In this document: one piece after another, positions 1,148 to 38,745 of the stretch
Numbering within the stretch: position 1 is the stretch's first letter
Layout: each line of letters starts with the position of its first letter
NCBI RefSeq assembly: GCF_001315985.1
Contig: NZ_BBBI01000021.1
Location: 1 to 38,745 of the forward strand
Reading direction: 5' to 3'
DNA from: Vulcanisaeta distributa JCM 11216
Lineage (GTDB): Archaea > Thermoproteota > Thermoprotei > Thermoproteales > Thermocladiaceae
Length of the DNA stretch: 38,745 bases
Position numbers and translations under genes: made by a program
The notes under the pieces: model-generated
Told to the model about the DNA's origin: nothing
What the model saw: the letters and a program-made list of their open reading frames with translations, nothing else
Databases searched by the model: none

Positions 1148-2986
1148 ATGATTGTTATTGGTTTTAATTGGCCAGGGTGGCATGATCATTCTGTTGCGGT
1201 GATTGTTGATGGCGAGTTGGTTTTTGCGAGTGAGGAGGAGAGGTGGACAAGGCACAAGCACTCGCCAGACGAACCACCAATAAATGCCTTGAAGCAAGCC
1301 TTCGAATTCCTAAAGAACAAGTATGGGATAAAGCCGAAGGATGTAGATGCGTATGCTGTGAACTTCGACCCAAGTATATTACCTAATAAGCTATATATGC
1401 AAGCATTGAGAGGTATTATCATTAATTCTTTGCATTTTGGTTATTTTAGTGGATTTTATGGCTATCTCTCCATAATTGATTGGGTTAGGGCTTTGGTTGG
1501 TGCTGGTTTTCGTTTTGTTACTTGGTCTTTAGATAGAGGTACGATTCTAGTTTGGGCTGAGAGGTTTGTTAGGAAGGCTGTTTATGATCTTGGTGAGGAG
1601 TTGCCAAGTAGGGTTAGGGTTATTCCTGTTCCTCATCATCTTGCTCATGCTGCTTCGGCCTACTACTTCAGTGGTTTTAACAATGCTACCGTCCTTACCG
1701 TTGATGGTAGTGGTGAGTTTGAGTCCACAGTGGTTTGGCGTGTGAGGGATAGTGAGTTTGAGAAAATAGTCTCAATACCGACCTATTACGGATCACTCGG
1801 TCTCCTTTACGAGGAGGTTTCCTGGACAATAGGCTATGATCACCTCGAGGGCCCTGGTAAGGTCATGGGTCTTGCACCTTATGGCCAGAAGAGCAAGTAC
1901 TATGATAAGCTTAGGTCCTACTTCAGGTTCGATGATAAGGATTACCCGTACTACATAAGTGTTGATGGTTCTAGGCCTAGGGTAGTCAAGGGTGATGATG
2001 CTATTTATAGGAGGCCTTACCGCCTCATCGCTGAATCTTTGTTTCCTGGTCGTGTTCCTTGGGATCCCCGTGGCGAACTTAATCGTGACGCCACTGATTT
2101 GGCTTTTGCTGTTCAGGCCGTGACTGAGGAGGCCATGCTTAGGCTCGCTGAGTGGGCTAAAAGCCACACTGGTGAGCAGAATCTTGCCCTTGCAGGTGGT
2201 GTGGCCCTTAATGCTAAGGCCAACATGGCTATTCACTACTCCAAGTTATTCAGCGACTTGTTCATATTCCCAGCAGCGAACGATGCCGGGACCACAGTCG
2301 GTGCTGCGGCTTATGTCTATGAGCATGTTCTTGGTGGTAAGATGAGGAGGGGGGAGGCTTAGGACTGTTTACTTGGGGCCTGAGTACAGTGATGATGAGG
2401 TGAGGAAGGTTGTTGAGCGTAGTAGGTTCGAGGCTAGGTACATCGGTGATGATGTTAATGAGGTTGCTGACTTGGTGAGTAAGGGCTTTGTTGTTGCTTG
2501 GTATCAGGGGCGTGCCGAGCTTGGCCCTAGGGCCCTTGGTAATCGCTCGATTGTTGCTGACCCTAGGAGGCTGATATGTGGAGGTTGGTGAATAACATCA
2601 AGGGTCGTGAGTGGTGGAGACCACTGGCTCCTTCATTGCTTCTTGAGGACGCAAGCAAGTACTTCATTGACCCAGTCCCTCACCAATTCATGATACTAAT
2701 GCTCAAGTACAGGGAGGGAATGAAGGAGGTGGTTCCCGCGGTCTACCACGTTGATGGAACAGCCAGACCACAGACTGTTGCCAAGGACGAAAACCCAACG
2801 TGGTACGAACTAATCAAGGCATTCAAGGACCTTACTGGCGAGGGCATTGTACTAAACACAAGCTTTAACCTAGCAGGAGAACCACTAGTCGAGACCCCCC
2901 CAAGCGACGCACTAAAATCCTTCGCCTTCGGAGGATTCGACGCCATTTATATGCAAGGATGGCTAATAAGAAAGAGGTGTAGTTAA
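1148..2986 (+). CDS. NodU/CmcH-family carbamoyltransferase (frame broken twice)
   Basis: Transfers a carbamoyl group from carbamoyl phosphate, via a carbamoyl-adenylate, to a hydroxyl of a sugar or other small molecule. Visible marks are the N-terminal MIVIGFN strand and SEEERWTRHK, the metal-binding VPHHLAHAAS near residue 163, GPGKVMGLAPYG, LAGGVALNAKANMA, then the C-terminal domain with GRAELGPRALGNRS and WWRPLAPS. Total length of about 610 residues fits the family. The frame breaks in the G6 run at 2349-2354, where five G restore the reading, and again near 2570, where one more G gives DPRRADMWRL. A C7 run at 2895-2901 probably adds one proline. Both domains are complete once corrected, so I regard the gene as functional. 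Confidence 0.85.
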
Positions 2987-3114
2987 TGAATACGTTTGCA
3001 TTCAACAAGTTCGTTAGTGCGTATGAGTTCATTAAGTACTTGCATTATTATTTTAATAATGTTCAATTTAGAGGTGGTCCTCAAATTTACTTAGATAATA
3101 GGCTCAGGCCTTAG
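2986..3114 (+). CDS. possible 42-residue small protein or gene remnant
   Basis: An ATG overlaps the TAA stop of the carbamoyltransferase (TAATG), the arrangement of translational coupling. It opens a 42-residue frame beginning MNTFAFNKFVSAYEF and rich in aromatic residues. I recognise no family. It may be a small coupled protein, the start of a decayed glycan gene, or chance. The remaining bases to 3292 hold only short AT-rich sequence with no gene I can support. Confidence 0.3.
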   Translation: MNTFAFNKFVSAYEFIKYLHYYFNNVQFRGGPQIYLDNRLRP

Positions 3115-3292
3115 TATGAATATTGAGGAAATTGGATTAATAAAATGTGACGGAAAGGACTAACATAGATGTAGCCCTATTGTTAGGATTGATTCGAGCG
3201 CATTAAGCTTAGTAGCTCGCTGTAGATTTTATGGGGATTATGGTATTCCTAGCCTTAATATGTGGTGGCTTGTATTGCTTCGAGGATATTAA

Positions 3293-3902
3293 TTAATGTG
3301 TCTGGATAGTCCTGACTCTTTTATCTATACTGTTATTAAGTGATGATCTCTTATTCCACTTAATGGTCTTTTTTAATTGGTTTAGTGCATTCTCAAGTTC
3401 GTCATTCCACTTTGTCCTTGTTTTCAGTTCCTCTATTCGTTTTGTTAATTCCTTTATGAGTAGTTTTATGTCGTAGGCAGCTTCCTCCCTGTTTCTGTAC
3501 TTGCTCATTGCCATGTCCGGGTCCGGCCCATTATACTGATAGTCGTGTAGTTCCAGGGCTGTGTTTGTGGTGAAGGATAACCCTGCATGCCCGATTTCCT
3601 CGAGCATTTGTGATAGTGCCTTCATCCTACCCGTCGGTATTCTTGGGATTGCCCTCTCCATCAACCACTTCCTCTCATCCTCGGTCTTAGCCGCTTGAAT
3701 TAGTTTATCAAGCTCGAGCCTAAGCAAGGCAGCCAAAACGCCCTCCAGGCTGAAAAGCCTTACCAGCCGCATTCCTAACCAAACCCTCGTTAAGGAAGCG
3801 CAGGGCTAGACCAGCCTCAACCAAGGCCTCCAGCAGCCTTGCATTGATGTAGTCCTCTGTGGTTGGCTTGGGTAGTGGTTTTTCTAGGGTTTCTGTGTTC
3901 AT
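3293..3902 (-). CDS. PaREP1-family protein, copy 1 (frame broken)
   Basis: A member of the PaREP1 family (first named from repeats in Pyrobaculum aerophilum); as I recall, it is grouped with HEPN-like all-alpha proteins, and its function is unknown. The N-terminal part begins MNTETLEKPLPKPTTEDY; the C-terminal part holds the conserved LHDYQYNGPDPDMAMSKYRN and a charged helical end. The frame is lost near 3745-3772, in the segment that reads KAFQAW in the paralogues. Two missing bases (one in CAGGCC, one in a T run) would restore a full alignment; one extra T is an alternative. The start ATG at 3902 has a TATA box about 30 bases upstream. It is one of three copies within 3.4 kb. Confidence 0.75.
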
Positions 3903-3926
3903 GTTAATTCATTTAGTCGCCATTAG

Positions 3927-3937
3927 GTTTAAATAAC
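3927..3937 (-). promoter_or_regulatory. TATA box for PaREP1 copy 1
   Basis: On the minus strand TATTTAAACCT lies about 30 bases before the ATG at 3902. The same TATTTAA-like element precedes the other two PaREP1 copies, so each copy appears to have its own promoter. Confidence 0.45.
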
Positions 3938-3961
3938 TATGGTTCGACATGGTTGAGGTCC

Positions 3962-7553: not shown

Positions 7554-8554
7554 ATGAGGGTCTTAATCACGGGGGGGTGTGGTGGTTACATAGGCACGTT
7601 ATTAACGCCATACCTAATCAGGAAAGGCTATAACGTTAGGTGTGTTGATAGGTTATTCTTCGGTGATGATGTGCTTAGGCACGTAATTGGCGAGAGGAAT
7701 TTCGAACTTATTAAGGCGGATACAAGGTCAATAAGTAAGGACGTACTTAACGGTGTTGACGCTGTTGTAGACCTTGCAGCATTGTCCAACGACCCAGCCG
7801 GTGAGTTGAACCCTCAGTGGACGCTTGATATTAATTATAGGGCTAGGGCTAGGTTGCTAAGCTTGCCAGTGAGGTTGGTGTCTCTAGGTATGTGCTTGCG
7901 TCAAGCTGTAGTGTTTATGGCAGGCAGAGTGGTATTGCTGATGAGAATACCGAGCCGAACCCATTAACGACGTATGCCAAGGCTAACCTGTTGGCTGAGA
8001 GGGATGTGCTTCCCCTGGCAAGTAGTAGGTTTACGGTAACGGCACTGAGGTTTGCCACCGTCTATGGACCATCGGTTAGGATGAGGTTCGACCTTGTGAT
8101 AAATGCCATGACGCTGTCCGCATTCACGGATGGCGTAATTTACGTTGAGGGTGATGGCATGCAGGAAAGACCTCTTGTTCATGTTATGGATGTCGTAAGG
8201 GCCATTGGTGCAGTACTCGAGGCACCAAGTGATAAGGTTAATGGTATGGTATTTAATGTGGGCTCTGATGAGCAAAACTTTAGGGTCATTGAAATGGCTA
8301 AAATTGTGCAGGGCATAGTTGGTGGTGAGGTCAGGTTCAGGGGGGGTGTGGTTGACGCCAGGAGTTATAGGGTTAGCTTTAGGCGCATTAGGGAAATGCT
8401 GAACTTCGCCGTGCTTTATAACGTGGATGATGGCGTTAAGCAGGTATACCATGAATTACTCACTGGTCACTTAAAGCCTGAGGATAGGTGGTTCACGGTT
8501 AGGTGGTATAAGAGGCTCCTTGAGCAGAATCCGAAGCTGCTGGATAGTTATTAA
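7554..8554 (+). CDS. NAD-dependent sugar epimerase/dehydratase (SDR, frame broken once)
   Basis: Extended short-chain dehydrogenase acting on a nucleotide sugar. The N-terminal Rossmann loop reads TGGCGGYIG because of a G7 run at 7571-7577; with four G it becomes TGCGGYIG, which fits the GxxGxxG motif exactly. AALSNDP follows, then the catalytic Ser region SSCSVYG and the YxxxK pair YAKANLLAE, then LRFATVYGP and the C-terminal substrate region ERPLVHVMDVVRAI and NVGSDEQNFR. The frame breaks near 7852, where one more G restores RARVAKLASEV. Length is about 332 residues. It converges on the nucleotidyltransferase and overlaps its end by four bases. The exact sugar is not determinable. Confidence 0.85.
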
Positions 8555-12094: not shown

Positions 12095-14106
12095 TTATTT
12101 ACTAAGCTTCTCAAGCTCTGCCTTAAACTCCTCGTAAGCCTTCTTAACCTCCTCAACGCTGGCCTCGTCCTCAAGCGTGGTTACATCACCTAATGGTTGC
12201 CCAGTGACTACGGCCCTAACGAGTCTCCTCATTATCTTACCGCTTCTAGTCTTTGGAAGCTTCGTTACAAAGAAGATATTGGATAACGTGGCTATTGGCC
12301 CCACAAACTCTCTAACAGTGTTATTTAATTCGGCCTTTAATTGCTCAGAGGGTTGGTAACCCTGCTTTAGGACGACGTAGGCCACGGGAACCTCACCCTT
12401 AACTGGGTCAGGAACACCAACAACCGCGGCCTCAGCAACAGCCGGGTGCTGTATTAACGCTGATTCAAGTTCATACGTACCAAGCCTGTGGCCAGCCACC
12501 TTAATTACCTCATCAGCCCTACCGAGTACCCAGAAGTAACCGTCCTCATCCTTAACTGCGTAATCACCTGCGTAGAACATCCCAGGGAACTTACTCCAGT
12601 AGGTCTTGACGTACCTATCTGGGTCTCTCCAGATCGTCAATAGCATTCCGGGCCACGGTCTCCTAATCACTAGGTAACCTCTTTGCCCAGGTTGTATTGG
12701 GTTTCCATTATCATCAACAACATCGGCATCAATACCAAGCAATGGTGGTCCGTTAGTACCTGGCTTGAGTGGTACCAGGGCGAGACCTGGTGCGTGGGAT
12801 ATCAGTATGCCTCCCGTCTCTGTCATCCACCAGGTGGAGCCGAAGGGCACCTTCTCCCTACCAGCTAGTTTCCAAAGCCACCTCCAGGCCTCTGGGTTTA
12901 TTGGCTCGCCAACTGAGTGGATGAGCCTTATCGTGCTAAGGTCATGCCTCTTAACCCAGTCATCACCAAACCTCATGAGCGTCCTTATACCCGTGGGGGG
13001 GCTCGTGTACAGTATGGTCGCCCCCCCATACCTCTCCACAATCGCCCACCAACGATCTGGGTTTGGGTAGTCAGGCGCGCCCTCATACATTATCGTTGTC
13101 ATACCCTCGAGGAGCGGCCCAAACACTATGTAGCTATGCCCAGTTACCCAGCCGATGTCCGCGGTGCAGAAGTGGATGTCATCCTCCCTGGCGTCGAATA
13201 CCCACTTCATGGTTGCGTGGAGTAGTACCATGTAGCCGCCTGTGTCGTGAACAATGCCCTTGGGCTTACCCGTTGTACCGGACGTGTATAGGATATATAG
13301 CGGGTGCTCACTCTCCACAGGCTCTGGCTCAACGTATGTGTTTACCGGTACGTCACGCATTAATTCATGCCACCAGTAGTCCCTGCCCTTAACCATGTTA
13401 ATGTCATTAAGGCCAACCCTCCTGTAGACAATTACGTTCTTAACCGTGGGTGACTGCTCAAGGGCCTTGTCAACGATTTCCTTAAGCCTAATCACCCTAC
13501 CACGCCTGTAACCACCGTCAGCCGTTATCACCAGCTTAGCCTCGGCATCATTAAGCCTGTCAGCCAATGCCTGAGCCGTGAATCCGCTGAAGACCACTGT
13601 GAATATTACGCCGAGCCTTGCAGCCGCGAGCATCGCTATTGGGAGCTCGGGAATCATTGGTAAGTAAATACCTATGGTATCGCCCTTCTTAAGGCCGAAC
13701 TTATTTTTAAGTACGTAGCAAGCCTATTAACCTCGCGCCATAGGTCGTAATACGTGAGCTTACGAACCTCAAGTGGATTACCGTTTTGGTCAACCGGCTC
13801 ACCCTCCCAAATAATGGCCACCTTATTCTTCCTACCACCCTTAACATGCCTATCCAGTGCCAGGTACGACGCGTTCAACCTACCACCAACAAACCACTTA
13901 TAAAACGGTGGTTGTGGATCAGCGGCAAGTACCTTATCCCAGGGCTTGAACCACTCGAGTTCCCTGGCAATATTTGACCAGAAGGCCTCAATGTCCTTAA
14001 GACTCTCCTGGTGAATTCTTTTATATTCCTCGGGATCGACTGCCCTCTCCTTCCCAATCTCGGGGATTATTTTCTCTTTAAAGGGTAGAGCCCATGTAAC
14101 TGACAT
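12095..14106 (-). CDS. acs: acetyl-CoA synthetase, AMP-forming (frame broken once)
   Basis: Activates acetate (or another short acyl chain) to the CoA thioester through an acyl-adenylate. The 670-residue length is that of Acs. Present are the N-terminal Acs domain ([20 protein letters not shown]), the adenylation loop [37 protein letters not shown], and the hinge-Lys region [10 protein letters not shown] whose Lys is the regulated acetylation site. The break near 13668 is one A missing from an A run ([20 protein letters not shown]). G/C7 runs at 12995-13001 and 13021-13027 give TSPPTG and YGGATI where TSPT and YGAT are canonical. ATG 14106 is chosen over an earlier ATG because of the TATA spacing. 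Confidence 0.9.
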
Positions 14107-14952: not shown

Positions 14953-15195
14953 GTGAGGTTTGGTGAGTTAACGGTTGACTTAAGGGGGGGTATTGGTTGC
15001 CCATACGGCAGTACACTTGCCATACAGAACTTCCGCGATGCGCCGGTGGGCTCCGTGATAACGTTTATACTCGATGATGAGGAGTGCTACCTAACATTGA
15101 AGAGGTTATTCCCACTGCTTGGGCAGAGGATCGTCAGGTCTGAGGAGCAGAATAGGGTGTATAAGCTCTCGGTCCTCAAGGTTAGGTTTTTCTAG
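14953..15195 (+). CDS. TusA/SirA-like small protein with a CPYG motif
   Basis: The 80-residue protein starts at GTG and reads LTVDLRGGIGCPYG, the TusA-family opening (DLRGxxCPxP) in which the Cys carries persulfide sulfur during sulfur relay, for example for tRNA thiolation or molybdenum cofactor. The second Pro is replaced by Gly (CPYG). The rest (PVGSVITFILDDEECYLTLKRLF, then LLGQRIVRSEEQNRVYKLSV) fits the two-layer fold. A G7 run at 14984-14990 adds one Gly to the normal LRGIGCP. It lies between the HLxxH protein (divergent) and the aminopeptidase. No sulfurtransferase partner is in the window. Sulfur-carrier function is inferred. Confidence 0.6.
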   Translation: MRFGELTVDLRGGIGCPYGSTLAIQNFRDAPVGSVITFILDDEECYLTLKRLFPLLGQRIVRSEEQNRVYKLSVLKVRFF

Positions 15196-22738: not shown

Positions 22739-24578
22739 ATGATGTCTACTGTTAATAATGACATTAAGTTTCTGGATGTTGTAAAGGCTCTTGAAAGTAT
22801 TGAAGCAACCACGCAGAGAACCGTGATGGCGAAGCTACTTTCAACACTCCTCAAGAAGACCCCCACCCAACGTTATTGATAAGGTCATCTACTTCATACT
22901 CGGCCAGTTAAGACCTGACTGGGAAGGCGTGGAGCTCGGTGTGGCCGAGAAGCTCACCTTTAAGGCCATTTCTAATGCCACAGGGGGGGTATCCGTTAAG
23001 CAGGTTGAGGATCTTTACAAGAGACTTGGTGATATTGGCGAGACGGCTAGGAGAATAATGAGTAGTAAGCCTCAGCAGGGTGGTGGTAAGTCAATACTTG
23101 AGTTCTTCGGTGGTGGGGGGGGTGGTGAGGAGTTAACGATGGGTAAGGTCTACGATACGTTAATGTCGATAGCCAGGGCGAGCGGTGAGGGTGCCCAGGA
23201 CACTAAGGTTAAGCTCCTGACATACCTATTCTCGAGGGCTAAGCCTGAGGAGGCTAAGTACATTGCCAGGTTCGTAATTGGTAGGCTGAGGCTTGGTGTT
23301 GCTGACATGACAATACTAGATGCCTTGTCCGATGCCTATAAGGTGTCCAGGGACGCCCTGGAGAGGGCTTACCATATTTATCCAGACCTTGGTTATATTG
23401 CTAAAATGGTTGCTCAGGAGGGTCAGGATGCCCTGGGTAAGATACACGTAACACCTGGTGTACCAATACAGCCAATGCTTGCGGAGAGATTGAGCACAGC
23501 CACCGAAATATTGGCTAAGCTTGGTGGTACCGCAATGGTTGAGTATAAGTATGATGGTGAGAGGGCCCAGGTGCATAAGACCAGGGATGGCGAGGTTAGG
23601 ATCTTCAGTAGGAGGCTTGAGAATATAACTCATGCATACCCAGACGTTGCTGAATACGTTAAGGAGGCTATCGATGCTAAGGAATTCATTGTTGAGGGTG
23701 AAATAATAGCTATTGACCCAGACACGGGTGAGTTTAGACCCTTCCAGGAGTTGATGCATAGGAAGAGGAAGCATGATATTAAGGAGGCTATGAAGGAGTA
23801 CCCAGTTAATATATTCCTGTTTGATGTCATGTACGTCGATGGTCAGGACCTAACGAACCTACCACTCATTGATAGGAAGAGGAAGTTGCTTGAGATCCTT
23901 AAGCCCAGTGAGTATGTTCACTTGGCGACGTGGAGGATAATAAATGATGCTGAGGAACTTGATAAGTTCTTCCATGAGGCTATAAGTGATGGTTGTGAGG
24001 GCGTGATGTGTAAGTCCATTAAGGCTGACTCTATTTATGAAATGGGCGCCAGGGGGGGTTGGCTCTGGATTAAGTATAAGCGTGACTACAGGAGTGAGTT
24101 GACGGATACCCTGGACCTAGTTGTCGTGGGCGCCTTCTGGGGGGGCCGCGGTAAGAGGGCTGGCACATACGGAGCGCTGCTCATTGCGGCCTATGATCCA
24201 AAGACCGATCAGTTCTACACAGTGAGTAAGGTGGGTAGTGGATTCACTGACGAGGATTTAGTAAAGCTTAAGCAGATGCTTGACCCGTATAGGATACCTC
24301 ATAGGCATCCAAGGGTTGTTTCCAAGATGGAGCCTGACGTGTGGTTCGTGCCTGCCGTGGTCCTTGAAATAATTGGTGCAGAAATAACCCTAAGCCCACT
24401 CCATACTTGCTGCATGGGCGCCGTTAGGCCTGACGTTGGTTTGGCCATTAGGTTCCCAAGGTTTACGGGTCGTTATAGGACGGATAAGTCGCCGGAGCAG
24501 GCAACGACTGTTGATGAAATACTCGAGATGTATAAGGAGCAGAAGAAGGTAAAGGTTGAGGAGGGTGCCAATCCATAA
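22739..24578 (+). CDS. lig: ATP-dependent DNA ligase (frame broken near the N terminus)
   Basis: Seals nicks during replication and repair. About 612 residues, the normal archaeal length. The N-terminal DNA-binding domain ([13 protein letters not shown]) leads to [14 protein letters not shown], the nucleotidyl-lysine motif [12 protein letters not shown] (Lys near 270), [41 protein letters not shown] and the OB-fold end [25 protein letters not shown]5 run near 22862 (four expected, [19 protein letters not shown]) breaks the frame, so the start is ATG 22739, not the later GTG. In-frame G runs give ARGGWLW and [10 protein letters not shown] with one Gly more than canonical. Confidence 0.93.
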
Positions 24579-26553: not shown

Positions 26554-26559
26554 ATCCCA

Positions 26560-27313: not shown

Positions 27314-28099
27314 ATGTCCAGGGCTGTTTGTCCAGGGCTTGAAAGGACCGCAAGTGGTTATGTGTGTACTTATGCACAACGCCCAATTAATCCATTCCAG
27401 TGGTATTGCTTTGGCGATTATTTTGAGTGCCCAATATACGTACAGTACATGAAGACAAAAAGTGCGCAAGCAAAGGCTGAGGTCAAACCATCACAAACTG
27501 TTCAACCATTACAGCAAGCCCAACAACAGACACAACAGGTAGTTACAGCTCCAGTTACTGTGACTACTACACGTGTTGAGACCACGGGTGACGCTGAGGA
27601 CGAGTTAATTAGGAATAGCGAGTCAATAATATCAAAGTTCGAGGGCAATGCTAAGGCGCTTAATGATAAGTGGAAGGATTATGAAAACTCCGTGCAAGCA
27701 ACCAGGCAGAGCTGGGAGTTAGAGAAGGCTAGGCTAAAGAGATACATTATTATTCTTGAGAGAATTCGTAATAAGTATAGTGAGGATCTTAAGGAAATTG
27801 AACTCAGGAAGAACATGGGCCTTATTAACGATGATGCCTATAATAAGCTTAGAGACAGTATTCAGAAGAAGCTTGATAAGATTAGCGATAAGCTTAAGGA
27901 GCTAAACTCTAGGTATCAGGATGTTGAGACAACAATAACACAGCACTACAAGAGACTTTTGATGACTACGGTAACGCCCGAGGTCAGTAAGCTCAAACTC
28001 TCGCTGGCCAAGCTCGAGGAAATGTATAGGGATGGTAAGATTAGTAAGGAGGTTTATGAGAAGCTGAAGGCCGAGATTGAGGGGGGGGTGATATCATGA
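27314..28099 (+). CDS. coiled-coil protein with N-terminal four-Cys head
   Basis: The 261-residue protein has four Cys at residues 6, 18, 32 and 39 (CPGLERTASGYVC, then YCFGDYFECPIY), a pattern of crenarchaeal zinc-binding heads. A Gln/Thr/Val-rich linker (residues 55-92) leads to a long coiled coil with two hairpin-like units, MGLINDDAYNKLRDSIQKKL and MYRDGKISKEVYEKL, of the kind seen in SHOCT-like modules. No signal peptide or membrane segment. Its stop overlaps the next ATG (ATGA), so the two are translationally coupled. The second gene is a paralogue of the coiled-coil part. The G8 run before the overlap lies where the ribosome binding site for gene 2 would be. Function unknown; a scaffold or filament role is only a guess. 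Confidence 0.65.
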   Translation: MSRAVCPGLERTASGYVCTYAQRPINPFQWYCFGDYFECPIYVQYMKTKSAQAKAEVKPSQTVQPLQQAQQQTQQVVTAPVTVTTTRVETTGDAEDELIRNSESIISKFEGNAKALNDKWKDYENSVQATRQSWELEKARLKRYIIILERIRNKYSEDLKEIELRKNMGLINDDAYNKLRDSIQKKLDKISDKLKELNSRYQDVETTITQHYKRLLMTTVTPEVSKLKLSLAKLEEMYRDGKISKEVYEKLKAEIEGGVIS

Positions 28100-28659: not shown

Positions 28660-28696
28660 ACTAACTAAATAATGTTCATTAGATTAAATACTAAAT

Positions 28697-29718: not shown

Positions 29719-29732
29719 TAGGGTTACCCTAA
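29718..29732. promoter_or_regulatory. palindromic operator candidate at the start of the NicO-like gene
   Basis: TTAGGGT-T-ACCCTAA is a perfect inverted repeat with 7-base arms. It begins at the first base of the ATG of the leftward gene, and a minus-strand TATA element GGTTTATTAAT (29740-29750) is about 28 bases upstream of that ATG. A protein bound here would cover the predicted transcription start, as expected for a repressor. The rightward CDF gene has its own TATA box 36-44 bases further on. Confidence 0.5.
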
Positions 29733-29767
29733 AGTTGGGATTAATAAACCCTTCTTCAGCAGTTAGT

Positions 29768-29776
29768 TTTATAAAT
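29768..29776 (+). promoter_or_regulatory. TATA box for the CDF exporter gene
   Basis: TTTATAAAT is centred about 34 bases before the ATG at 29806, so a very short leader is likely. Confidence 0.45.
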
Positions 29777-29805
29777 TGATATCGGATCAGTTATCGATTT
29801 AGAGC

Positions 29806-31245
29806 ATGCCTAAAGATAGGTTAATTAGCAATTCTCGGGATAATGAGGTAGGCATGAGAGGTCTTTACACGTACATGAGTAATGAGAAGACTAGGGTCGC
29901 CCTATTCTCATTACTAGCGTCAGTGCTAATAACCGCTATGAACATAATCGCATGGCTACTCACGAATTCCCTCGCAGTCCTTGCAGAGGCCATGCACACA
30001 TTCCTTGATATTCTCGTAACAACGATAACGTTAATTGCCGTTAATGTAGGCTCCAAGCCTCCCGATAAGGAGCACCCATTTGGCCATGGTAAGGCTGAGA
30101 GTATTGGCGGGCTTTTTGGCTCTTTATTCATAATCGTGGCTGGCATACTCATTGGGTATGAAAGTGCTGAGCGCATAATAACTAGGACGCCGTTTAGCCC
30201 CGATGTTATTGCCATAATCGTTATGGCAATAGCGATAGCCATTGACGTAAATAGGTCAAGGGCATTAAGGAGGGCAGCGACTAAGTGGAATAGTAGGGCC
30301 CTTGAGGCTGATTCTTACCACTTCCTGAGCGATGTAGCCATCGAGGTTTCCGTCGTTGCCCTTATGATCATTGGCCTATTAATGGAGAGATTTAGAGTTG
30401 GCTTATTTAATGAGTGGGGGGGTACTACGATTGATGCCTTAGTCGCCTTTGCAATAGTCATTTACTTCTCAATAATTGGTGCACGTATAATGAGGACCTC
30501 AATAGATGAGTTAATGGATAGATCCTCTGAGGAACTTACTAATAGGGTCGCTAACATAGCTAAGTCCGTGCAAGGTGTCGTCTCGGTGAAGGACATTAGG
30601 GCTAGGAGGATTGGTTCAATAGCGCATATAGAGGTTACAATAGGTGTTTCTGATCATTTAGGCATCGCTGAGGCGCATAGTATTGCTGATAATGTGGAGT
30701 CAGCGATAAGGCGTGAGGTTGGCCCATCAATAGTCATGGTCCACGTGGAACCCGAGCTCCGTGAAAAGATAGAGAGGGCGCTCGCCAATGTCGGTGATCC
30801 GTTAATTATTAATATTCATGAATTGAACATTATGAGGTCGCAAAGTGGTGCAATAGTTAGTATGCACATGGTTATTAGGGGGGGCGATGCAAAACTAAGC
30901 GATGCCGATAAAGCCATAAATGAGGTGAAGAATATCATAAGGCAGATATTACCCAATGCCTTGGTTTGGGTTCACCTTGAGCCTGACATGAAGATAATAA
31001 ATACGGATGATATAAGAAGAATTGCTGATCTTGTTTGCTCTAAGTATGGTGGGCATGTCGGCGATATTAACGTTATCAATATTGAGGGTGTTAATGCCAT
31101 ACATATTCTTGTGTATTTACCGCAGAATATGAACATTGTTGAGGCACATAATGTGGCCACCGAAATAGAGAGCGAGATAGCTAAAATCTATAGCATGCCT
31201 CATCATGTGACTGTTTCGGTACTACCCGATACCAAAGCCTTATAA
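29806..31245 (+). CDS. cation diffusion facilitator with long C-terminal cytoplasmic region
   Basis: Exports divalent metal (Zn, Fe, Mn, Co or Ni type) from the cytoplasm in exchange for protons. Six membrane helices span residues 30-240. The metal site pairs are His64/Asp68 in AEAMHTFLD and Asp169, His172/Asp176 in ADSYHFLSD. KEHPFGHGKAE is the family's conserved loop. At 479 residues it is about 180 longer than usual: after the normal ZT-dimer domain (ending MVHVEPE) there are two further domains ending WVHLEPD and VTVSVLPD, which look like repeats of the same fold. The G7 run near 30417 gives EWGGTTIDALVAF with one extra Gly. The frame is intact. Confidence 0.85.
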   Translation: MPKDRLISNSRDNEVGMRGLYTYMSNEKTRVALFSLLASVLITAMNIIAWLLTNSLAVLAEAMHTFLDILVTTITLIAVNVGSKPPDKEHPFGHGKAESIGGLFGSLFIIVAGILIGYESAERIITRTPFSPDVIAIIVMAIAIAIDVNRSRALRRAATKWNSRALEADSYHFLSDVAIEVSVVALMIIGLLMERFRVGLFNEWGGTTIDALVAFAIVIYFSIIGARIMRTSIDELMDRSSEELTNRVANIAKSVQGVVSVKDIRARRIGSIAHIEVTIGVSDHLGIAEAHSIADNVESAIRREVGPSIVMVHVEPELREKIERALANVGDPLIINIHELNIMRSQSGAIVSMHMVIRGGDAKLSDADKAINEVKNIIRQILPNALVWVHLEPDMKIINTDDIRRIADLVCSKYGGHVGDINVINIEGVNAIHILVYLPQNMNIVEAHNVATEIESEIAKIYSMPHHVTVSVLPDTKAL

Positions 31246-31273
31246 CCTATTGTCTATATCACAAGTATGATCA

Positions 31274-31918
31274 ATGGTGCACAGAAAATTCGTGTTTGTA
31301 TTCAATAGTATGGATGAGGCGTTAACGTTCATAGAGACAATTACTAATAAGATCAAGAGTAAGGAGCTGCTTATTCGGTACGATGTAGGTAATGGCATTA
31401 GGGTTTGGGTTTCAATGCAGGGTGAACCTCATGAAATTGAGCTTTACTCCATGGAGATCAAGCGTGCTTATAATGATATTAAGTTAATGAGAGGTAAATT
31501 CGGCGTCCGCACATACGACATTTCACTAATACTTAGTAAGGCCAGACTTAGTGCCGCCATACCCATTGACTTGATAATCGACCTTCTCCACATTAAGGGC
31601 ATAAATGCCGAGCTAAATGGCTCTAAAATAAGAGTTGTCGGTGATATTAAGCTTGAGGACTTGGTAAATCTCGTTGAAAGAATATCTAATATCTATAATG
31701 AGTTAATTAACGTTGATGTATCCGCACAGGCCAAGAGAATAATCACGCTCTATTCATTATTAATGAATATAGATACCAAGGGTAGCATTAGGGATTTACT
31801 CGATAAAGGATTACTCTCTAGGTATGGTGATACGGATTTGATCGTGCTTTCCATGGATTATAAGCACGCATTATCTAAACTACAGGAAATTACGGAGAGT
31901 AGGAGTAATGCATATTAA
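31274..31918 (+). CDS. DUF2067-type archaeal protein, function unknown
   Basis: A 214-residue protein, mixed alpha/beta, opening MVHRKFVFVFNSMDEALTFIE and containing GEPHEIELYSMEIKRAYNDIK and ILSKARLSAAIPIDLIIDLL followed by a small basic strand-rich part (LNGSKIRVVGDIKLED). This order and length match the uncharacterised archaeal DUF2067 family as I remember it. It follows the CDF gene by 28 bases with a TATA-like CCTTATAACC just upstream, so it may have its own promoter. No catalytic residues are apparent. Confidence 0.55.
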   Translation: MVHRKFVFVFNSMDEALTFIETITNKIKSKELLIRYDVGNGIRVWVSMQGEPHEIELYSMEIKRAYNDIKLMRGKFGVRTYDISLILSKARLSAAIPIDLIIDLLHIKGINAELNGSKIRVVGDIKLEDLVNLVERISNIYNELINVDVSAQAKRIITLYSLLMNIDTKGSIRDLLDKGLLSRYGDTDLIVLSMDYKHALSKLQEITESRSNAY

Positions 31919-31948
31919 GAGGAATGTACTAATACTTGGCATTACGTA

Positions 31949-33530
31949 ATGAGCAATAGTGAATATACCGGGCTTAAGGAATTACTATTGAAGCAGGTAA
32001 TTCAGCAATACATAATGAATCAATATCCCTGGGGGGATCATAACAAGGCCACTAACACCAATGGCATTAGTTATACTATCAATAGCGTATGCAGTAACGG
32101 TTGCAATGCTCATGTTAAGCATGATGCAGATAGCGATGCTGATTAAATATGGTATAGTAAATTTAATGTATATGAGGGTACACGGTAATAGGGTTCATGA
32201 ACGCGATAAAGCCAATACCGTGCCGGCGCATAAATTACCATTCGTATCCATACTAATACCCATTAAAAATGAGAATATAATGACCATAGAAAGAAGTCTG
32301 CAGGCCATAGCATCGCTTAACTACCCTAAGGAATTATTTGAGGTTTTATATATAAGTGATGACCCTGAGTATTACGTAAACAGCCTTACGAAGATAATAA
32401 TCCCCCCCATGTCACGTAGGCTAGGTATAAATGTTAAGGTACTACGCAGGACAGTTAATAAGGGCTATAAAGGCGGTGCCCTTAATTACGGTATTAAGCA
32501 TGCCAAGGGCGATGTAATCGCCGTATTTGATGTAGATACAATAATGCCCAGTGATTATCTTCAAAAGGCTGTGATCGCATTATTGAATGGCTATGACGCA
32601 GTCACTGCGGTGTGGAGAGGCTATTACACAGTTGATAATTCAGTTTCAAGACTTTTGAAATTCATGTATGACCTGTATAGCGATGTTTTCATAAGGGGTA
32701 GATTTCTCGGCAATGGTTTCCCAATAATAACCAGCAATAATTTAGTGATTTGGAGAAAGGTCCTTGACCTTGTTAATGGATTCTGCGAATGCACGGGCGA
32801 GGACCTTAACCTTACTATCAAATTAAGGTCAAGGGGGGGGTATAGGATAGGATTAATAGATTCCATTGTTTACAGTGAAGTACCACAGACATACCTAGCA
32901 TTTAAGAAGCAATTTAGTAGATGGTTATTTAATGGCATTTGGAGCTTAAAGCATGATTTAAAACTAATACTAACATCTAGGGAGGTCACGATTTGGGAAA
33001 AGATAGATAGTATACTCTGGATGTTGCAGATCCCAAGTACGTCCTTTGTTCCCTTATCAATACTAATAACAATAGTATTATCAGTAATAGGTGTTTTAAT
33101 TCCACCAATATCAATAACTCTTCTCGAGATATTAAACACCTCAATCTCAGCGATTTTAGGCATAATCCTACTGCTATTCTTTAAGAAAATGGGCTATAAA
33201 ACTTGGGATTTTCTGACGAACATGGCAAAGGCAATTTCACTTATGATACTTATTTCATTTCCAATGCTTGTTTACTCAATAGAATCATTAATAACTGATG
33301 AGTGGGAATGGATACCAACGCCAAAGGGACCGTCTCCTCACCATATGCGCATAGGTTCGTTTAAAGACTTAGTACATGAACTTTTCGCCATTTTAATTTT
33401 GGTAATAGCTATGGTAGTCCTCATTCTCTATAAGCAATTACTAACAACAATATATGTGCTAAGCATAATGTTAATAATGATGTATAGCCTTAGATTTACC
33501 ATACCACAAAAAGCATTAGTTAAGCAATAG
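31949..33530 (+). CDS. processive GT2 glycosyltransferase, membrane-bound (frame broken once)
   Basis: Family 2 glycosyltransferase of the cellulose/hyaluronan-synthase type, about 526 residues. A membrane helix near residues 40-65 precedes the catalytic domain, with DVDT (the DxD site, near 194), TGED (general base, near 282) and QFSRW (QxxRW, near 321), then four membrane helices. It should add sugars from a nucleotide sugar to a lipid or growing glycan. The break is a G6 run at about 32031-32036 (five expected, YPWGIITRPLTP), so the start is ATG 31949. The G8 run at about 32833 gives RSRGGYRIG in-frame where RSRGYRIG is canonical. Confidence 0.85.
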
Positions 33531-33564
33531 ATAATAAGGGGATGCAGGAGCATTACGGTAGGGC

Positions 33565-34718
33565 ATGGATATTATGTATGATGCAATAATAGTCGGTGCT
33601 GGACCGGCAGGATCTATTGCAGCCTACGTGGCTTCAAAACTTGGATTTAAGGTACTTATTATTGATAGATTTCGCTTTCCAAGGTTTAAACCCTGCGGTG
33701 GAGGATTAACCCAAAAGTCCATTTTATTGCTAAGGAGCCTTGGTCTTGACTTAAATGGTGTAGTTAGGGATGAGTGCCGCAGAGTCGTTGTTATTAATAG
33801 TGCAGGTTCTTTCATCCTTACAGACAATGACCCAATAATAACCGTGGTTTCTAGAGACGAATTCGATAATTACCTACTATCCAATGCCCTGGAGCTGGGT
33901 ACTGATTATATCGTAGATAGGGTGGTTAGTGTTCGTACTAATGGGGGGGACCACGTAAATGTTATTGGCATGGATAACACGTATATTGGTAGATACGTAA
34001 TAGCGGCTGACGGCGCTAATTCCATAGTTGCCAAGTACCTTGGCAATGACATAAGGAGAAATACAGCAATGGCATTTATGACCATAGCACATGGGAATTA
34101 CTTTGATAATACATGTGTAATAGATATGACGAGAATTAAGTGGGGGGGCTACTCATGGATATTTCCGAGGGGGGGTGGTGGTGAATATGATGTTGGTATT
34201 GGTTCGATACATTGGGATAACTATAGGGCTCAATTAATTAGGTATGTACGTGACGCTGGATTACGGGAAGGGGAAATACGTGGTCACCCTATACCGATTA
34301 AATCCCGCGAAAGAATAACCTCTAAGCGCATAGTCCTGGTTGGTGATGCTGGTGGGTTTGCAGATCCAATCACGGGGGGGAGGGCATTTTCTACGCCATG
34401 TATAGTGGCGCCTTGGCTGCATTGGCATTAAAGCATTCAAGCAACCCAACTGAGTTCGTAAATAATTACCTGAGGTCCATTAGGCCATTAATTAAAAACT
34501 TGTCATTGGCGTATTACTTATCACTGGGCACCTATGGGATTGATCATTTAGTTATGGGAAGGCTCGGCTTGAGCGCATTCTCCGTGGCCAGTACCAGGAA
34601 TTTAATAAAGAAGGTAATGAAGGGAGGTACTTGGTACTATCAAATGCCAATTTCCATCATTAAATTCTCAATATCGAAGGGACCTCGGTTAATGCTCGAA
34701 AAAATACTACACGGATGA
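33565..34718 (+). CDS. geranylgeranyl reductase family flavoprotein (frame broken once)
   Basis: FAD enzyme that saturates the isoprenoid chains of archaeal membrane lipids or of a prenyl carrier. The dinucleotide loop GAGPAG is at residues 11-16, the family motif KPCGG at 42-46 and VLVGDAGGFADPITGEG near 265. The break is at the G7 run 34374-34380: observed TGGRAF, whereas five G give TGEGIFYAMYSGALAAL, the conserved family wording. G7 runs at 34142 and 34165 give KWGGYSW and FPRGGGGEY in-frame. Length is about 383 residues. It follows the GT2 gene by 34 bases and may be co-transcribed; together they point to lipid or lipid-carrier glycan synthesis. Confidence 0.85.
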
Positions 34719-34753
34719 TTTTTAGATTATCAATAGAGGGTAAAGCCCCCCCG

Positions 34754-35100
34754 TTATTCCTCAGATTCTTCTTCAAACCCTTCAGTTCCCATTTCCTCAG
34801 TGCCCTCTGGCGATTCCTGCGAAGACTCGGCTCCTCCTGTGTAACCTCAGCTACAGCGTATGATCTACCAACCCTCGTTATCTTAACCTTAACCTTATCC
34901 CCCCCCGGCTTTGTATTGGGCACGAAGATCACGAAGCCCTTCACCCTGGCTATACCGTCACCTCTCTTAGACGTCTCCACTATGCTTACCTCTATTACAT
35001 CACCAACATTTACTGGCTTAGGACCCCCCCGTGGACCTCTACCCCCCCTACCTCTTTGAAAGTTTCTCCTTCTCGGTCTTTCGGACTCGGACGTAGTAAC
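34754..35100 (-). CDS. TRAM-domain protein with acidic tail (frame broken, start unresolved)
   Basis: Small RNA-binding protein. The TRAM domain reads KPVNVGDVIEVSIVETSKRG and GDGIARVKGFVIFVPN, then KVKVKITRVGRSYAVAEVTQEE. An Arg/Gly-rich N-terminal arm (RPRRRNFQRGRG) precedes it. In the visible frame the end is odd, but one more base near 34837 gives an acidic tail (SSQESPEGTEEMGTEGFEE) and a stop at 34754, which is far more typical and removes an overlap with the reductase gene. No clean start codon is in-frame upstream; a minus-strand TTTATAAA at 35132-35139 predicts transcription from near 35110. TRAM proteins of this kind act as RNA chaperones in some archaea. Confidence 0.75.
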
Positions 35101-35131
35101 CGCCTTACAAGTGATGCTGTGCGAGAACCCC

Positions 35132-35139
35132 TTTATAAA
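35132..35139 (-). promoter_or_regulatory. TATA box for the TRAM gene
   Basis: Minus-strand TTTATAAA within GATTTATAAAGG. It predicts transcription from near 35110, where a TTG occurs, but the frame immediately after it is closed, so a sequence error in the first codons is likely. Confidence 0.45.
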
Positions 35140-35152
35140 TCATTCTGGTTCA

Positions 35153-35163
35153 ATATATTTAAA
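35153..35163 (+). promoter_or_regulatory. TATA box without a protein gene behind it
   Basis: ATATATTTAAA on the plus strand. About 26 bases downstream is GTGATGA (35184-35190) and no open reading frame of useful length follows, so the promoter may drive a small RNA. Confidence 0.45.
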
Positions 35164-35179
35164 CCACCTCACTAGTGTA

Positions 35180-35240
35180 GGCATGTGATGAACACCTCTG
35201 ATTAGGACTCATGACTGAGCCAAGCCCCCCAGACTGAGTG
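35180..35240 (+). ncRNA. candidate C/D box sRNA
   Basis: A C box GTGATGA at 35184-35190 and a D box CTGA at 35233-35236 are 42 bases apart, the size of an archaeal C/D guide RNA. Inside are a D'-like CTGA (35197-35200) and a weak C'-like CTCATGA, but the first guide would then be only six bases, which is too short. The second guide, next to the D box, contains a C6 run that may be overlong. The TATA box upstream places the transcript start at the C box. If real, it would guide 2'-O-methylation of rRNA or tRNA. Confidence 0.35.
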
Positions 35241-35265
35241 GTTCATTTCATAATTGCATAAGGTA

Positions 35266-36206
35266 TTACGAAACACCAACGATATTGAGTGATTCGCCAT
35301 CGAGCAGTATTACATGAGGCTCCGCTGCACTATAAGGACCGGCCCTAGACGTGAATATTGTCAAGACCTTATTCCCATGGTTCCACTTATAACCCCCCCG
35401 TGGTGTGTATTCGTGGCCTCGAATAATAATCCTTAACCCACTGCTATTGAGAAAGTTTTCCGTTAATACAGGCCCAAATACGTATGTACCTGGTCCTCTA
35501 ATAACGTTATGTTCATAGTACTTAACTTCATCTGATGGGTCGTTCCATAACAATTGAAATGTTATTTCATTGCTAGGTATTTCGTCGGGTTTTGGTAATT
35601 TGGCTATACTATCAATGCTAATGTTGTTTATGGGCAAGCCTCCATGCACTAGGAAGTACTTATCATTTAGGATGACTGATATGGGCATTGCGCAAATACT
35701 TCCTTTAACTTATCATATACGTAATCACCATCATAATGTCCAAACTTTCTTAGTAATTCCGTGTAGAAACCATACTCGTAATTCGTCAACGGTGATTCAT
35801 GATTACCCCCCCTCAATAATATGGCCTTATGCTCAAGAAAAAGCCTTAACGCAAGGTATAGCGTCTCTATTTGATGCTCGCCCCTATCCACGTAGTCCCC
35901 AAGCATTATGTAAATCCACTTGTCCGGTGAATAATTATTTATTATTCGTAGTAGCGTATCCACATCGCCGTGTAGATCACCGATGATCACGGCCTTATCA
36001 GCCGTAATCCTGAGCAATGGCTCGTACGTACTAAGTTCACTATATACCCTATCAATATTCTCCTTAAGGAATCCCTTAATTGTTAGGATATCCACGTTAT
36101 AACGTATTAATATGGAATTTAAATAAGTTATACCTAGGTTCAGGGACTGGTAATCGACGTAGTGACGATCAAAATCAGTTGATAAGTTTTTAAATTTTAA
36201 TTTCAA
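35266..36206 (-). CDS. PPP-family Ser/Thr protein phosphatase (frame broken once)
   Basis: Metal-dependent phosphatase of the PP1/PP2A type. GDLHGD (76-81), GDYVDRG (103-109) and LRGGNHE (131-137) form the binuclear site; canonical is LRGNHE, the additional Gly coming from a C7 run at 35806. VHGGLP and RGHEYTP carry the remaining ligands. The N-terminal ~65 residues are a helical arm (DRHYVDYQSLNLGITYLN). The break near 35696 is one A missing (KEVFAQMPISVILNDKY). Total about 313 residues. The start is TTG at 36206, in an AT-rich gap of 11 bases from the divergent unknown gene, so the exact start is uncertain. Its target proteins are unknown. Confidence 0.85.
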
Positions 36207-36217
36207 TCATTAATTAA

Positions 36218-37156
36218 ATGAATGCGCTTGAGATACTAGTGAGGATTAGAAAGATAGTTGAGGATATGGTTAAGGAAACCTTCATAGTAAAGGCGCTTAA
36301 GGAAGGCTCAATAATGTCACTCAGCACGGAAGACATTATCAATTTATACCCATATAACGCATACGACTATCGCGTTGATGGCAAGAACATAGATTATATA
36401 ATTACTGAGGACTCAGTAACACTACTCGCCGACCTTGCCAAGATAAATAATTGGTCTATTGATAACATTAAATATGCAGAATTCAATGACTGCTTGTCAA
36501 TAAGCGTTAATGAGGGCGTATTATCAGTAACGTGTAAGGATAAAACAATACGTGAGGGAGAGAGGGTTGCGTATGTCGACAAGATGCTAATGAGGAGGTA
36601 TGGTATTGAAATTAAGTTAAGGAACATTAATGGCGAACAAATAGCACCGCTTGAGAAGTTATTTGAAAGACTAACAAGCATAGATGTGGAGAGCTTAATA
36701 ACATTACCCATATACTTCGTAATAAACCCAACGCACTTAGGCCTTGATGTCCTAGCTGACACCTACATATACCTCCTGACCAAGGGCTTGAATAGGGTAC
36801 CCACGAATACTGACGCTGCCGAGTACTTGATAAATAATAATAAATTGAATGACAATTACATAAAGGCGTACGTACTGAAGGAAGATATTGACATGCTTAA
36901 GGAGTACTTCGATATCAAAATTAATGAGAAAGGCCATACCACTGAGTATTTAATAAATGGCGAGTATGCCCTTACGGTGTCGACCGTTCAAGGAAGTATT
37001 AATCCTAACCTCCTCAAAATAACCTGGATTAATCTAGAAACACTTAAGATTAATGGTATTGGAATAAACCTGATTGACTTAGGAAGCACCAACGTGCTTG
37101 ATTGCTCAGAGATGCTCATTGAGAAGATGAAGCAGGAATTCCGCGGGATTCTATAG
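36218..37156 (+). CDS. unknown 312-residue protein
   Basis: A soluble, acidic and Asn/Ile-rich protein with an intact frame (start MNALEILVRIRKIVEDMVKE) and no G7 run at all. Two similar-looking parts may exist: a first half with DRVDGKNIDYII-like strands (YRVDGKNIDYIITEDSVTLL) and a second with KLFERLTSIDVESLITLP followed by FVINPTHLGLDVLADTYIYL. No signal peptide, membrane segment or catalytic motif is visible and I recognise no family. It diverges from the phosphatase across 11 bases and converges with a P-loop ATPase over 6 bases, so the three genes are tightly packed; whether they work together is unknown. Confidence 0.6.
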   Translation: MNALEILVRIRKIVEDMVKETFIVKALKEGSIMSLSTEDIINLYPYNAYDYRVDGKNIDYIITEDSVTLLADLAKINNWSIDNIKYAEFNDCLSISVNEGVLSVTCKDKTIREGERVAYVDKMLMRRYGIEIKLRNINGEQIAPLEKLFERLTSIDVESLITLPIYFVINPTHLGLDVLADTYIYLLTKGLNRVPTNTDAAEYLINNNKLNDNYIKAYVLKEDIDMLKEYFDIKINEKGHTTEYLINGEYALTVSTVQGSINPNLLKITWINLETLKINGIGINLIDLGSTNVLDCSEMLIEKMKQEFRGIL

Positions 37157-37792
37157 TACTACATTGCCATCATTAAGTACCCTACTTAGCGCCGAATCGT
37201 TATTACCACTCAACCTCCTAAAATTCCTTAATACCATACCTGGGGGGGTTCTCATTATTGGTCTAACATAGTCAATACCGATCCTTTGCGCAAAAGCCCT
37301 TAGCTCATCATCGCGATACTCAATGGCAACCCTAGACGCTGAACGTAAAAGCATTATTAATGGTTCAAGCATCTCTAAATCATTACTCACTAACAACGGT
37401 ACTGTTAGTGTGGCAACTATGGTACCATTGAACCCCCCCAATACCTTATTGACGAAGCCCTGGGCAATCTTAGGCACCGCAAATGCGGCATCAATATCAT
37501 CAACAAGGAATACCCTTGCGTTTGAATCATTATGGCAATCAACAAGCTTTATAGACTTAAGCCCAAGTTCATTGTATGAGTTTACATAGGCCACCGGTAT
37601 CCCTAACTTCCTTAGTCTATTCATTATCGCCAACAACGCCGTAGTTTTGCCACTACCGCTCTCACCCATTATAACCAAAGCTCTTTCTTTCCTCATTATT
37701 TTATCCACGGCCCAATTAATGATCTCCTTAATCGATGCGCCAACCAATGAATCCTCGTTAACCCTTCCACAATTAATTACGTAATCATACAT
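37151..37792 (-). CDS. small P-loop ATPase, DnaA/Cdc6-like in layout
   Basis: The 213-residue protein holds Walker A GESGSGKT at residues 43-50 and Walker B VFLVDDIDAAF near 94-104, then a sensor-like strand IVATLTVPLLVSND and EYRDDELRAFAQRIG, which resembles the start of an AAA+ lid. It looks like a stand-alone loader or STAND-type module rather than a transporter ATPase. I start it at ATG 37792; a TTG one codon earlier is also possible. A C7 run at 37433 gives VLGGFNG and a G7 run at 37241 gives RTPPGM, both in-frame. Partner unknown. Confidence 0.65.
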   Translation of the reverse strand: MYDYVINCGRVNEDSLVGASIKEIINWAVDKIMRKERALVIMGESGSGKTTALLAIMNRLRKLGIPVAYVNSYNELGLKSIKLVDCHNDSNARVFLVDDIDAAFAVPKIAQGFVNKVLGGFNGTIVATLTVPLLVSNDLEMLEPLIMLLRSASRVAIEYRDDELRAFAQRIGIDYVRPIMRTPPGMVLRNFRRLSGNNDSALSRVLNDGNVVL

Positions 37793-37861
37793 CAATTACC
37801 AGTAATTATACGAAATAAAATTATCATATACTTACAATAATCGATAATTCATTAAGAATAC

Positions 37862-38032
37862 ATGAATAATATAGTTAGGACGAGAAAAGGTATATCCTAT
37901 GGATTACTCCATCCGAGACTGACGGTGTCAATAATCACGTTATGTTCAGGCAATATAATAAATGTAATGCCTTCAGCTGGAATTTACCTCATATCTAAAG
38001 AACCACCTGCAATTGATGAAGGTTATGAATAG
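37862..38032 (+). pseudogene. truncated flavin-reductase-like remnant
   Basis: A 56-residue frame starts at ATG 37862 and contains YGLLHPRLTVSIITLC, NIINVMPSAGIYLISKEPPA, closely resembling the start of flavin reductase-like (FMN-binding split barrel) proteins, which continue for over 100 more residues. Here it stops at TAG 38030-38032. No continuation with the right wording is found in the following 160 bases in any frame that I could read, so it is probably a decayed or truncated gene rather than a simple frame error. The rest of the gap to 38193 contains a short hairpin (GACCT-AAGAA-AGGTC) and no other gene. Confidence 0.5.
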
Positions 38033-38162
38033 GTTAGATGTTGGTGAGAGTATGTTAGTCGTTGATGATTAAAGTATTGATTTTAACAGGGTAGACCAGC
38101 ACTACATGGTTCTGGCAGGGTTTTCATAGTGTTGACCTAAGAAAGGTCCTTGCAAAGAAATC

Positions 38163-38170
38163 ATTTAAAT
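38163..38170 (+). promoter_or_regulatory. TATA box for the Gfo/Idh/MocA gene
   Basis: ATTTAAAT is centred about 28 bases before the ATG at 38194, which supports that start. Confidence 0.45.
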
Positions 38171-38193
38171 AGATCGTATCTTGTGTTAAATCG

Positions 38194-38745
38194 ATGACCC
38201 TTAAAATCGCTGTTATTGGGTGCAGGGGGGGTTTTGGCAGGGTTCACCTAAATGCATTGTCGAAGTTACGTAATAGGTATGGGTTGGAGATCTACGTGTT
38301 TAGCAGGACTGAAGAGTATGCGAAGGATTGCTATAGGGAGTATGAGGCGAGTGGATACTTTACGAGGTATAGCGATGTACTAAGGTCTAATGTCGATGTT
38401 GTGGATCTCGTGGTTAGCCATGATGCGCACATGCCAATGAGTATAGCCGCCCTTGAGGCTGGCAAGCACGTGATGCTTGAGAAGCCTATAGCGAGAACAA
38501 TCGAGGAGGCCATGAGCATCATAAGCATGGTTAAATCAAGCGGTAAGAAATTCATGGTCCTAGAGAACCATTTCTTCGATACATCAGTGTGGAAGGCCAG
38601 GGAGCTAATGAGACAATTGGGCAGGGTCTCAATGATAATAGTTAGGAAGCTTCAGTATAACTCGCCAGGTGGTTGGAGGAGGATTAGGGAGTTAATGGGG
38701 GGGGTGGTGGTGGCGCTTATTGGATGGGGGGGGTATTCACTACGG
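38194..38745 (+). CDS. Gfo/Idh/MocA-family oxidoreductase, partial at window end (frame errors near the end)
   Basis: NAD(P)-dependent oxidoreductase, probably on a nucleotide or cyclic sugar. It begins MTLKIAVIGCRGGFGRVHLN (one Gly likely added by a G7 run at 38225; GCRGFGRVH fits the dinucleotide loop better), has VDVVDLVVSHDAHMPMSIAA and the family motif LEKPIARTIEEAM with the catalytic Lys. Near the window end the expected GGGALLDGGIHY is scrambled: G8 runs at 38697 and 38726 and one missing T between them disturb the frame. The C-terminal half lies beyond the window. It fits with the sugar-modifying genes elsewhere in the segment. Confidence 0.8.
   Translation, partial: MTLKIAVIGCRGGFGRVHLNALSKLRNRYGLEIYVFSRTEEYAKDCYREYEASGYFTRYSDVLRSNVDVVDLVVSHDAHMPMSIAALEAGKHVMLEKPIARTIEEAMSIISMVKSSGKKFMVLENHFFDTSVWKARELMRQLGRVSMIIVRKLQYNSPGGWRRIRELMGGVVVALIGWGGYSLR

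Follow-up and report, generated by a model that had tools for sequence, protein, structure and literature searches.

Introduction

Homopolymer-length errors are familiar from flow sequencers, and in their textbook form are mostly of one base either way. Long G tracts are also found as genuine features of genomes; the phase-variable poly-G tracts of Campylobacter are longer and few in number, and their length differs from cell to cell. The Ion Torrent PGM is noted for frequent homopolymer errors in the available part of one source (PMC3446914). For archaea, the available text of another describes GnNiGn repeats (n > 7), 'up to several 100', in three distant species, all JCM strains, which its authors set aside (PMC8044849).

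The window analyzed here is a stretch of 38,745 nt, contig 21 (NZ_BBBI01000021.1) of the 65-contig, 2.42 Mb draft genome of Vulcanisaeta distributa JCM 11216. A first-pass annotation of its sequence reported about 85 runs of 6–8 G or C, most of them exactly 7 bases long, and considered a homopolymer-length error, made in sequencing or in the consensus, more likely than a genuine tendency to expand G tracts. The observation is confirmed here, and the shorter runs found in relatives support that preference: the seven-base runs are not a real feature of the genome, and are almost certainly absent from the DNA of the organism.

Genomes and Comparisons

The main reference was Vulcanisaeta sp. JCM 16159 (contig 9, NZ_BBDN01000009.1), a draft from the same collection that is colinear with the window at about 96% identity and aligns to positions 17,029–38,744 at 93–96% identity. 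The other comparators were V. distributa JCM 11217 (NZ_BBBJ01000009.1 among its contigs), the complete genome of V. distributa IC-017 (2,374,137 bp), a complete genome of a congener (G003), a further congener (G004), and loci from four metagenome bins (L057–L060). Outside the genus, G020 belongs to another genus of the same family, and G014 is an unaffected member of the genus of G020. Sites were considered well flanked when at least 10 of 12 flanking bases matched. A confusion table of run lengths, from JCM 16159 to JCM 11216, was compiled over 64,270 aligned bases, from alignments no shorter than 400 bases and no less than 88% identical, at flank-matched sites only. The wider survey tallied exact G7 and C7 runs across 401 different Thermoproteota genomes, 398 of which were drawn evenly from a larger group.

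Homopolymer Runs in the Window and the Genome

The runs in question span nearly the whole window:

2349..38733, 87 G/C runs of 6–8 bases (36 G7, 34 C7, 9 G8, 2 C8, 5 G6, 1 C6)

Seventy are exactly 7 bases long, and the spacing is about one run per 420 bases, close to the earlier estimate of one per 450. The four runs that had been cited as examples (beginning at 7571, 13021, 14984 and 34142) are all exactly 7 bases (G, C, G and G, respectively). Such runs had been expected to be nearly absent, and a first-order Markov model indeed predicts only about 5.5 G and C seven-runs where 70 are observed; the same model predicts about 220 four-runs, and 29 are observed. The first-pass annotation was right that runs of 5 are rare (6 are left), while its 'dozen or so' runs of 4 was too low a figure. 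For lengths 4, 5, 6, 7 and 8, the window holds 16, 3, 5, 36 and 9 runs of G and 13, 3, 1, 34 and 2 runs of C, with none of 9 or more bases. Runs of A and T are normal, with a maximum length of 6.

Exact sevens make up 55 of the 92 G/C runs of at least 4 bases that lie inside ORFs and 15 of the 30 outside (the split is based on 47 hand-picked ORFs of the window's 62), so both kinds of sequence are affected, as had been noted. The distribution has the same shape in a 300 kb sample of the genome, where runs of 4, 5, 6, 7 and 8 bases number 179, 59, 16, 351 and 49 for G and 167, 52, 18, 245 and 21 for C, and no G/C run of 9–13 bases was found. The complete 2.42 Mb draft contains 4803 exact G7 or C7 runs.

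Run Lengths at the Same Loci in Relatives

Examination of the same loci in related genomes had been suggested as a check. At 36 well-flanked seven-runs of the window, the run in JCM 16159 is shorter by 3 bases at 33 and by 2 at 3, so that 0 of 36 sites share the seven-run with this closest relative. Two of the 38 aligned runs were left out of this set: the run at 30416 is likewise 3 shorter, and that at 19899, which has another run next to it, is 6 shorter. Well-flanked seven-runs were exactly 3 bases shorter at 29 of 32 sites in G003, 39 of 44 in IC-017 and 15 of 20 in G004, the remainder being 1–2 shorter; two poorly flanked sites in G003 (9525 and 33943) showed no length difference. In the metagenome bins, 26 of 28 well-flanked sites were 3 shorter and none had 7. 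The longest run in a relative was often below 4, i.e., interrupted or diverged. Both complete genomes, IC-017 and G003, agree with the draft reference JCM 16159 on the shorter lengths. Individual sites are as follows:

7571..7577, G7; 3 shorter in IC-017, also 7 in JCM 11217
13021..13027, C7; 3 shorter in JCM 11217, G003 and IC-017
14984..14990, G7; 3 shorter in G003 and IC-017, 2 shorter in JCM 11217
28081..28088, G8; 5 in JCM 16159 and G003, 8 in JCM 11217
32695..32698, unexpanded G4; likewise 4 in JCM 16159
34142..34148, G7; 4 in all five comparators, including the affected JCM 11217
34374..34380, G7; 5 in JCM 16159, a 2-base difference that therefore shifts the frame
35042..35048, C7; 4 in all five comparators
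35225..35230, C6; 4 in JCM 16159, G003, IC-017 and G004, 7 in JCM 11217

Across the confusion table, 88 of 147 G/C four-runs of JCM 16159 have 7 bases in JCM 11216, and 127 of 128 A/T four-runs are unchanged (A4, 60/61; T4, 67/67). The G4 runs became 3 (1 run), 4 (18), 5 (6), 6 (1), 7 (61 of 89) and 8 (2), and the C4 runs 3 (2), 4 (21), 5 (6), 6 (2) and 7 (27 of 58). Longer runs behave similarly, with G5 going to 6 (2), 7 (4) or 8 (9), that is, 13 of 15 to 7–8, and C5 remaining at 5 (2) or going to 7 (3 of 5). Runs of three were kept almost throughout (G3, 551/561; C3, 480/482), although three G3 runs of JCM 16159 have 7–8 bases in JCM 11216; these, like the two G003 sites without a length difference, count against the explanation favored below. 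From this table the onset lies at a true length of 4, and only G and C are affected. Since relatives have about 4 bases at the same loci, homopolymer lengths in the deposited sequence are systematically wrong.

Two other features of these alignments were noted. Identity to JCM 11217 is 91.2% over positions 12098–20665, 82.8% over 20668–33328 and 76.5% over 33561–37878, and the drop at about 20.67 kb may mark a recombination boundary. At 38053–38059, JCM 16159 has 46 extra bases (3 and 43), at a point within the part of the window (about 37.9–38.1 kb) skipped by the alignments of JCM 11217, G003, IC-017 and G004.

Conserved Genes: 23S rRNA and DNA Ligase

The 23S rRNA gene of JCM 11217 was compared with that of IC-017 over 2184 aligned columns, with JCM 16159 against IC-017 as the control; no 23S gene was found in JCM 11216 or G020. 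Taking IC-017 lengths as true, G/C four-runs are read in JCM 11217 as 3 (1), 4 (12), 5 (7), 7 (20) or 8 (1), five-runs as 5 (3), 6 (1), 7 (7) or 8 (6), and six-runs as 7 (1) or 8 (3), so that 21/41, 13/17 and 4/4, respectively, end at 7–8. All 21 A/T runs of 3–5 bases are unchanged, and the control kept 65/66, 25/25 and 7/7 of its G/C runs of 4, 5 and 6.

A DNA ligase ORF with Pfam domains (22929–24578, forward strand) carries four runs in the window, each adding a glycine relative to six homologues. Three of these glycines lie opposite a gap in 6/6 homologues and one in 5/6:

22983..22989, G7 in the DNA ligase ORF; 4 in JCM 16159, extra glycine at a gap in the six homologues
23115..23122, G8 in the DNA ligase ORF; 5 in JCM 16159, extra glycine at a gap in 5/6 homologues
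24052..24058, G7 in the DNA ligase ORF; 4 in JCM 16159, G003, IC-017 and G004, 7 in JCM 11217, glycine in a strongly conserved stretch
24139..24145, G7 in the DNA ligase ORF; 4 in JCM 16159, G003, IC-017 and G004, 7 in JCM 11217, glycine in a strongly conserved stretch

The expanded runs thus fall in conserved genes for RNA and for protein alike, whatever their function (23S rRNA of JCM 11217; DNA ligase).

Shape, Context and Independence of the Runs

True runs of 4, 5 and 6 all end at 7–8, indicating convergence on that length and not a fixed addition of 3. A constant +3 is ruled out by the six-runs of the JCM 11217 23S gene and the upper limit on run length in the 300 kb sample. In the confusion table, 97 of the 128 changed G/C runs of true length 4–6 differ by 3 bases and 31 by 1, 2 or 4; these 31, together with the same shape outside ORFs, rule out selection for preserved reading frames. 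Changes other than 3, with one-base indels, may plausibly account for some of the ORF fragmentation and the low completeness.

At 50 well-flanked sites with 7 bases in JCM 11216, the longest run in JCM 11217 is 7 at 16, 5 at 7, 4 at 6 and 3 or fewer at 21. Of 18 sites with 4 bases in JCM 11216, five have 7 bases in JCM 11217 and one has 6. The expansions in the two genomes are not inherited as a set. Sequence context was rejected as a determinant, as the 15 bases on either side do not separate surviving four-runs from seven-runs (AUC 0.49–0.50 in JCM 11216, 0.51–0.53 in JCM 11217 and 0.54–0.55 in G020). No clustering along contigs was found, adjacent runs agreeing no more often than expected. 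The error depends on the base and the run length, independently of neighboring sequence.

Distribution among Thermoproteota

An excess of exact seven-runs occurs in 3 of the 401 genomes, from two genera: JCM 11216 (4803), JCM 11217 (3857) and G020 (7958). The next-highest count is 340 (G163). Of the 11 other members of the genus, the ten apart from JCM 11217 have 0–5 such runs each. The error follows the assembly and not the phylogeny, with JCM 16159 free of it at 96% identity and JCM 11217 and G020 affected. Completeness values are 67.75 for JCM 11216, 67 for JCM 11217 and 47 for G020, and low completeness is unspecific, since JCM 16159 (63) and G006 (54) lack the error. A single C10 was seen in a 275 kb sample of G020.

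Separately, several near-complete genomes of a second family of the order (G025–G044) have 100–310 exact seven-runs, far under the artefact level and above the window's family; these are possibly genuine G tracts.

Origin of the Error

We consider it very probable that the draft contains a systematic length error in which G and C homopolymers are called as 7–8 bases once the true run reaches 4. In the cell, the tracts would mostly be 4 G or C, and some 5 or 6; base calling would then report 7–8 for G/C runs of at least 4, leaving runs of 1–3 and all A/T runs untouched. The outcome at each site (7 or the correct 4) resembles, at a guess, a vote among mixed reads; about one-quarter to one-third of true four-runs survive. 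For JCM 11216, JCM 11217 and G020, the underlying data would have come from the Ion Torrent PGM, a flow sequencer, as part of the JCM program of draft genomes, and the presumed cause is that the flow signals of G and C were badly calibrated for runs of at least 4 bases; the software step at which this arose is a guess. Miscalibration of Ion Torrent G/C homopolymers in drafts from the JCM culture collection is the most likely cause. The platform is documented for one sister draft, that of V. souniana JCM 11219 (BBBK01000000), which was sequenced on the Ion Torrent PGM; the same source also lists an Illumina draft (BMNM00000000) and a complete genome (AP026830) of that strain (PMC9872577). BBBJ (JCM 11217) is the adjacent accession prefix according to the available part of another source (PMC5069417), and the accessible text of a JCM-related announcement from 2014 gives Ion PGM with Newbler 2.8 (PMC4241665).

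A separate A/T length error at length 6 is present in JCM 16159. Over 422 kb (L036, L037 and L142–L161), its runs of 5, 6, 7 and 8 number 182, 8, 20 and 4 for A and 206, 5, 18 and 5 for T; all five of its A/T seven-runs that align to JCM 11216 have 6 bases there, and two of two T6 runs of IC-017 are 7 in JCM 16159. Errors that are base-specific, set by a length threshold and different among drafts fit miscalibrated flow signals at homopolymers. In Torrent software, homopolymer recalibration started at a length of 4; as a search on the name of that recalibration parameter found no paper, we treat it only as a lead.

An unlikely alternative places the fault in the consensus: the reads would be correct at 4, and the assembler would have misregistered two groups of reads at G/C runs and written their union. 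That most four-runs gain exactly 3 bases (88/147) has the look of such a fixed shift, and Newbler appears in the available text of JCM-related announcements of the period. A fixed shift, however, predicts 9 for a true 6, where 7–8 was seen in 4/4 cases and runs of 9–13 were lacking in 300 kb, and it leaves the sparing of A/T runs unexplained.

Native modification of G/C tracts, misread by nanopore or a similar single-molecule method, would accord with the three affected genomes all belonging to one family, and is given little credence. The Ion Torrent PGM, the platform of the sister draft BBBK, reads amplified DNA; moreover, JCM 16159 is unaffected at 96% identity, and sequence context plays no part.

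Real expansion of G tracts in cells, by a mutator or directed insertion, is the least probable reading and as a biological alternative very unlikely, although unstable G tracts have been reported in Pyrobaculum aerophilum and the prevalent change of 3 (97/128) keeps frames. Insertions would have had to accumulate by the thousand after divergence from a strain that is still 96% identical, and to do so in three genomes, for the most part at different sites, with insertions inside the 23S rRNA gene and conserved DNA ligase stretches and the same shape outside ORFs.

Consequences for Genome Comparisons

Drafts with the error serve as species representatives. Its effects are spurious codons, some frameshifts and an inflated apparent density of G-quadruplexes. 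Matches to G7-N1/2-G7 (overlapping matches counted) number 369 in G020, 43 each in JCM 11216 and JCM 11217, 9 in G017 and 1 in G014, and none were found in JCM 16159, IC-017 or G003. The nine in G017 are overlapping matches within a single G run of at least about 23 bases (contig C27, 2063–2085). A rough G4Hunter-type score gives 3.3 regions per kb in JCM 11216 and 3.4 in JCM 11217, and 1.5 in both JCM 16159 and IC-017; the unaffected G014 already has 3.3, with 6.1 in G020 of the same genus, which cautions against over-reading the G-quadruplex link.

In the available part of one survey, Thermocladium modestius JCM 10088 is listed in a table of high G-quadruplex density, mostly of non-JCM genomes, at 7.381 and 53.14% G+C (PMC7565180). 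The 369 paired-run matches only suggest that G020 may be this strain, with a sampled G+C of 50.8% against the published 53.14%. As two G-quadruplex surveys, in the parts available, single out JCM drafts, the error may have found its way into published work, and its links to published reports of G runs and G-quadruplexes are probable. With some reservation, we favor the view that a conversion of 4–6 to 7–8, which our searches did not find described, affects a set of culture-collection drafts of unrelated archaea, that false biology has been published from it (G-run repeats or G-quadruplex outliers in T. modestius JCM 10088, Methanogenium cariaci JCM 10550 and Thermogymnomonas acidicola JCM 13583), and that some of these drafts still serve as species references. 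Such assemblies could be screened for simply, by a run-length histogram with a dip at 4–5 and a peak at 7 for G and C only.

Comparison with Known Systems

A search of the literature, mostly at the level of titles, found no title describing this error or its software cause. The closest likeness is to the homopolymer indels of flow sequencers such as the Ion Torrent PGM, the errors being confined to homopolymers; in contrast to the textbook case, true runs of 4–6 become 7–8, only G and C are involved, and the change is of genome scale and present in the consensus. Phase-variable poly-G tracts, as in Campylobacter, are similar in that long G/C homopolymers lie within genes, but there are thousands of runs of the type seen in the window, some of them in rRNA, and the nearest relative lacks them. 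The GnNiGn repeats resemble the present runs, as far as their published description goes, in that several hundred paired G runs were seen in JCM strains, much as in G020, and differ in that the paper has n > 7 where the runs here are of 7–8 bases.
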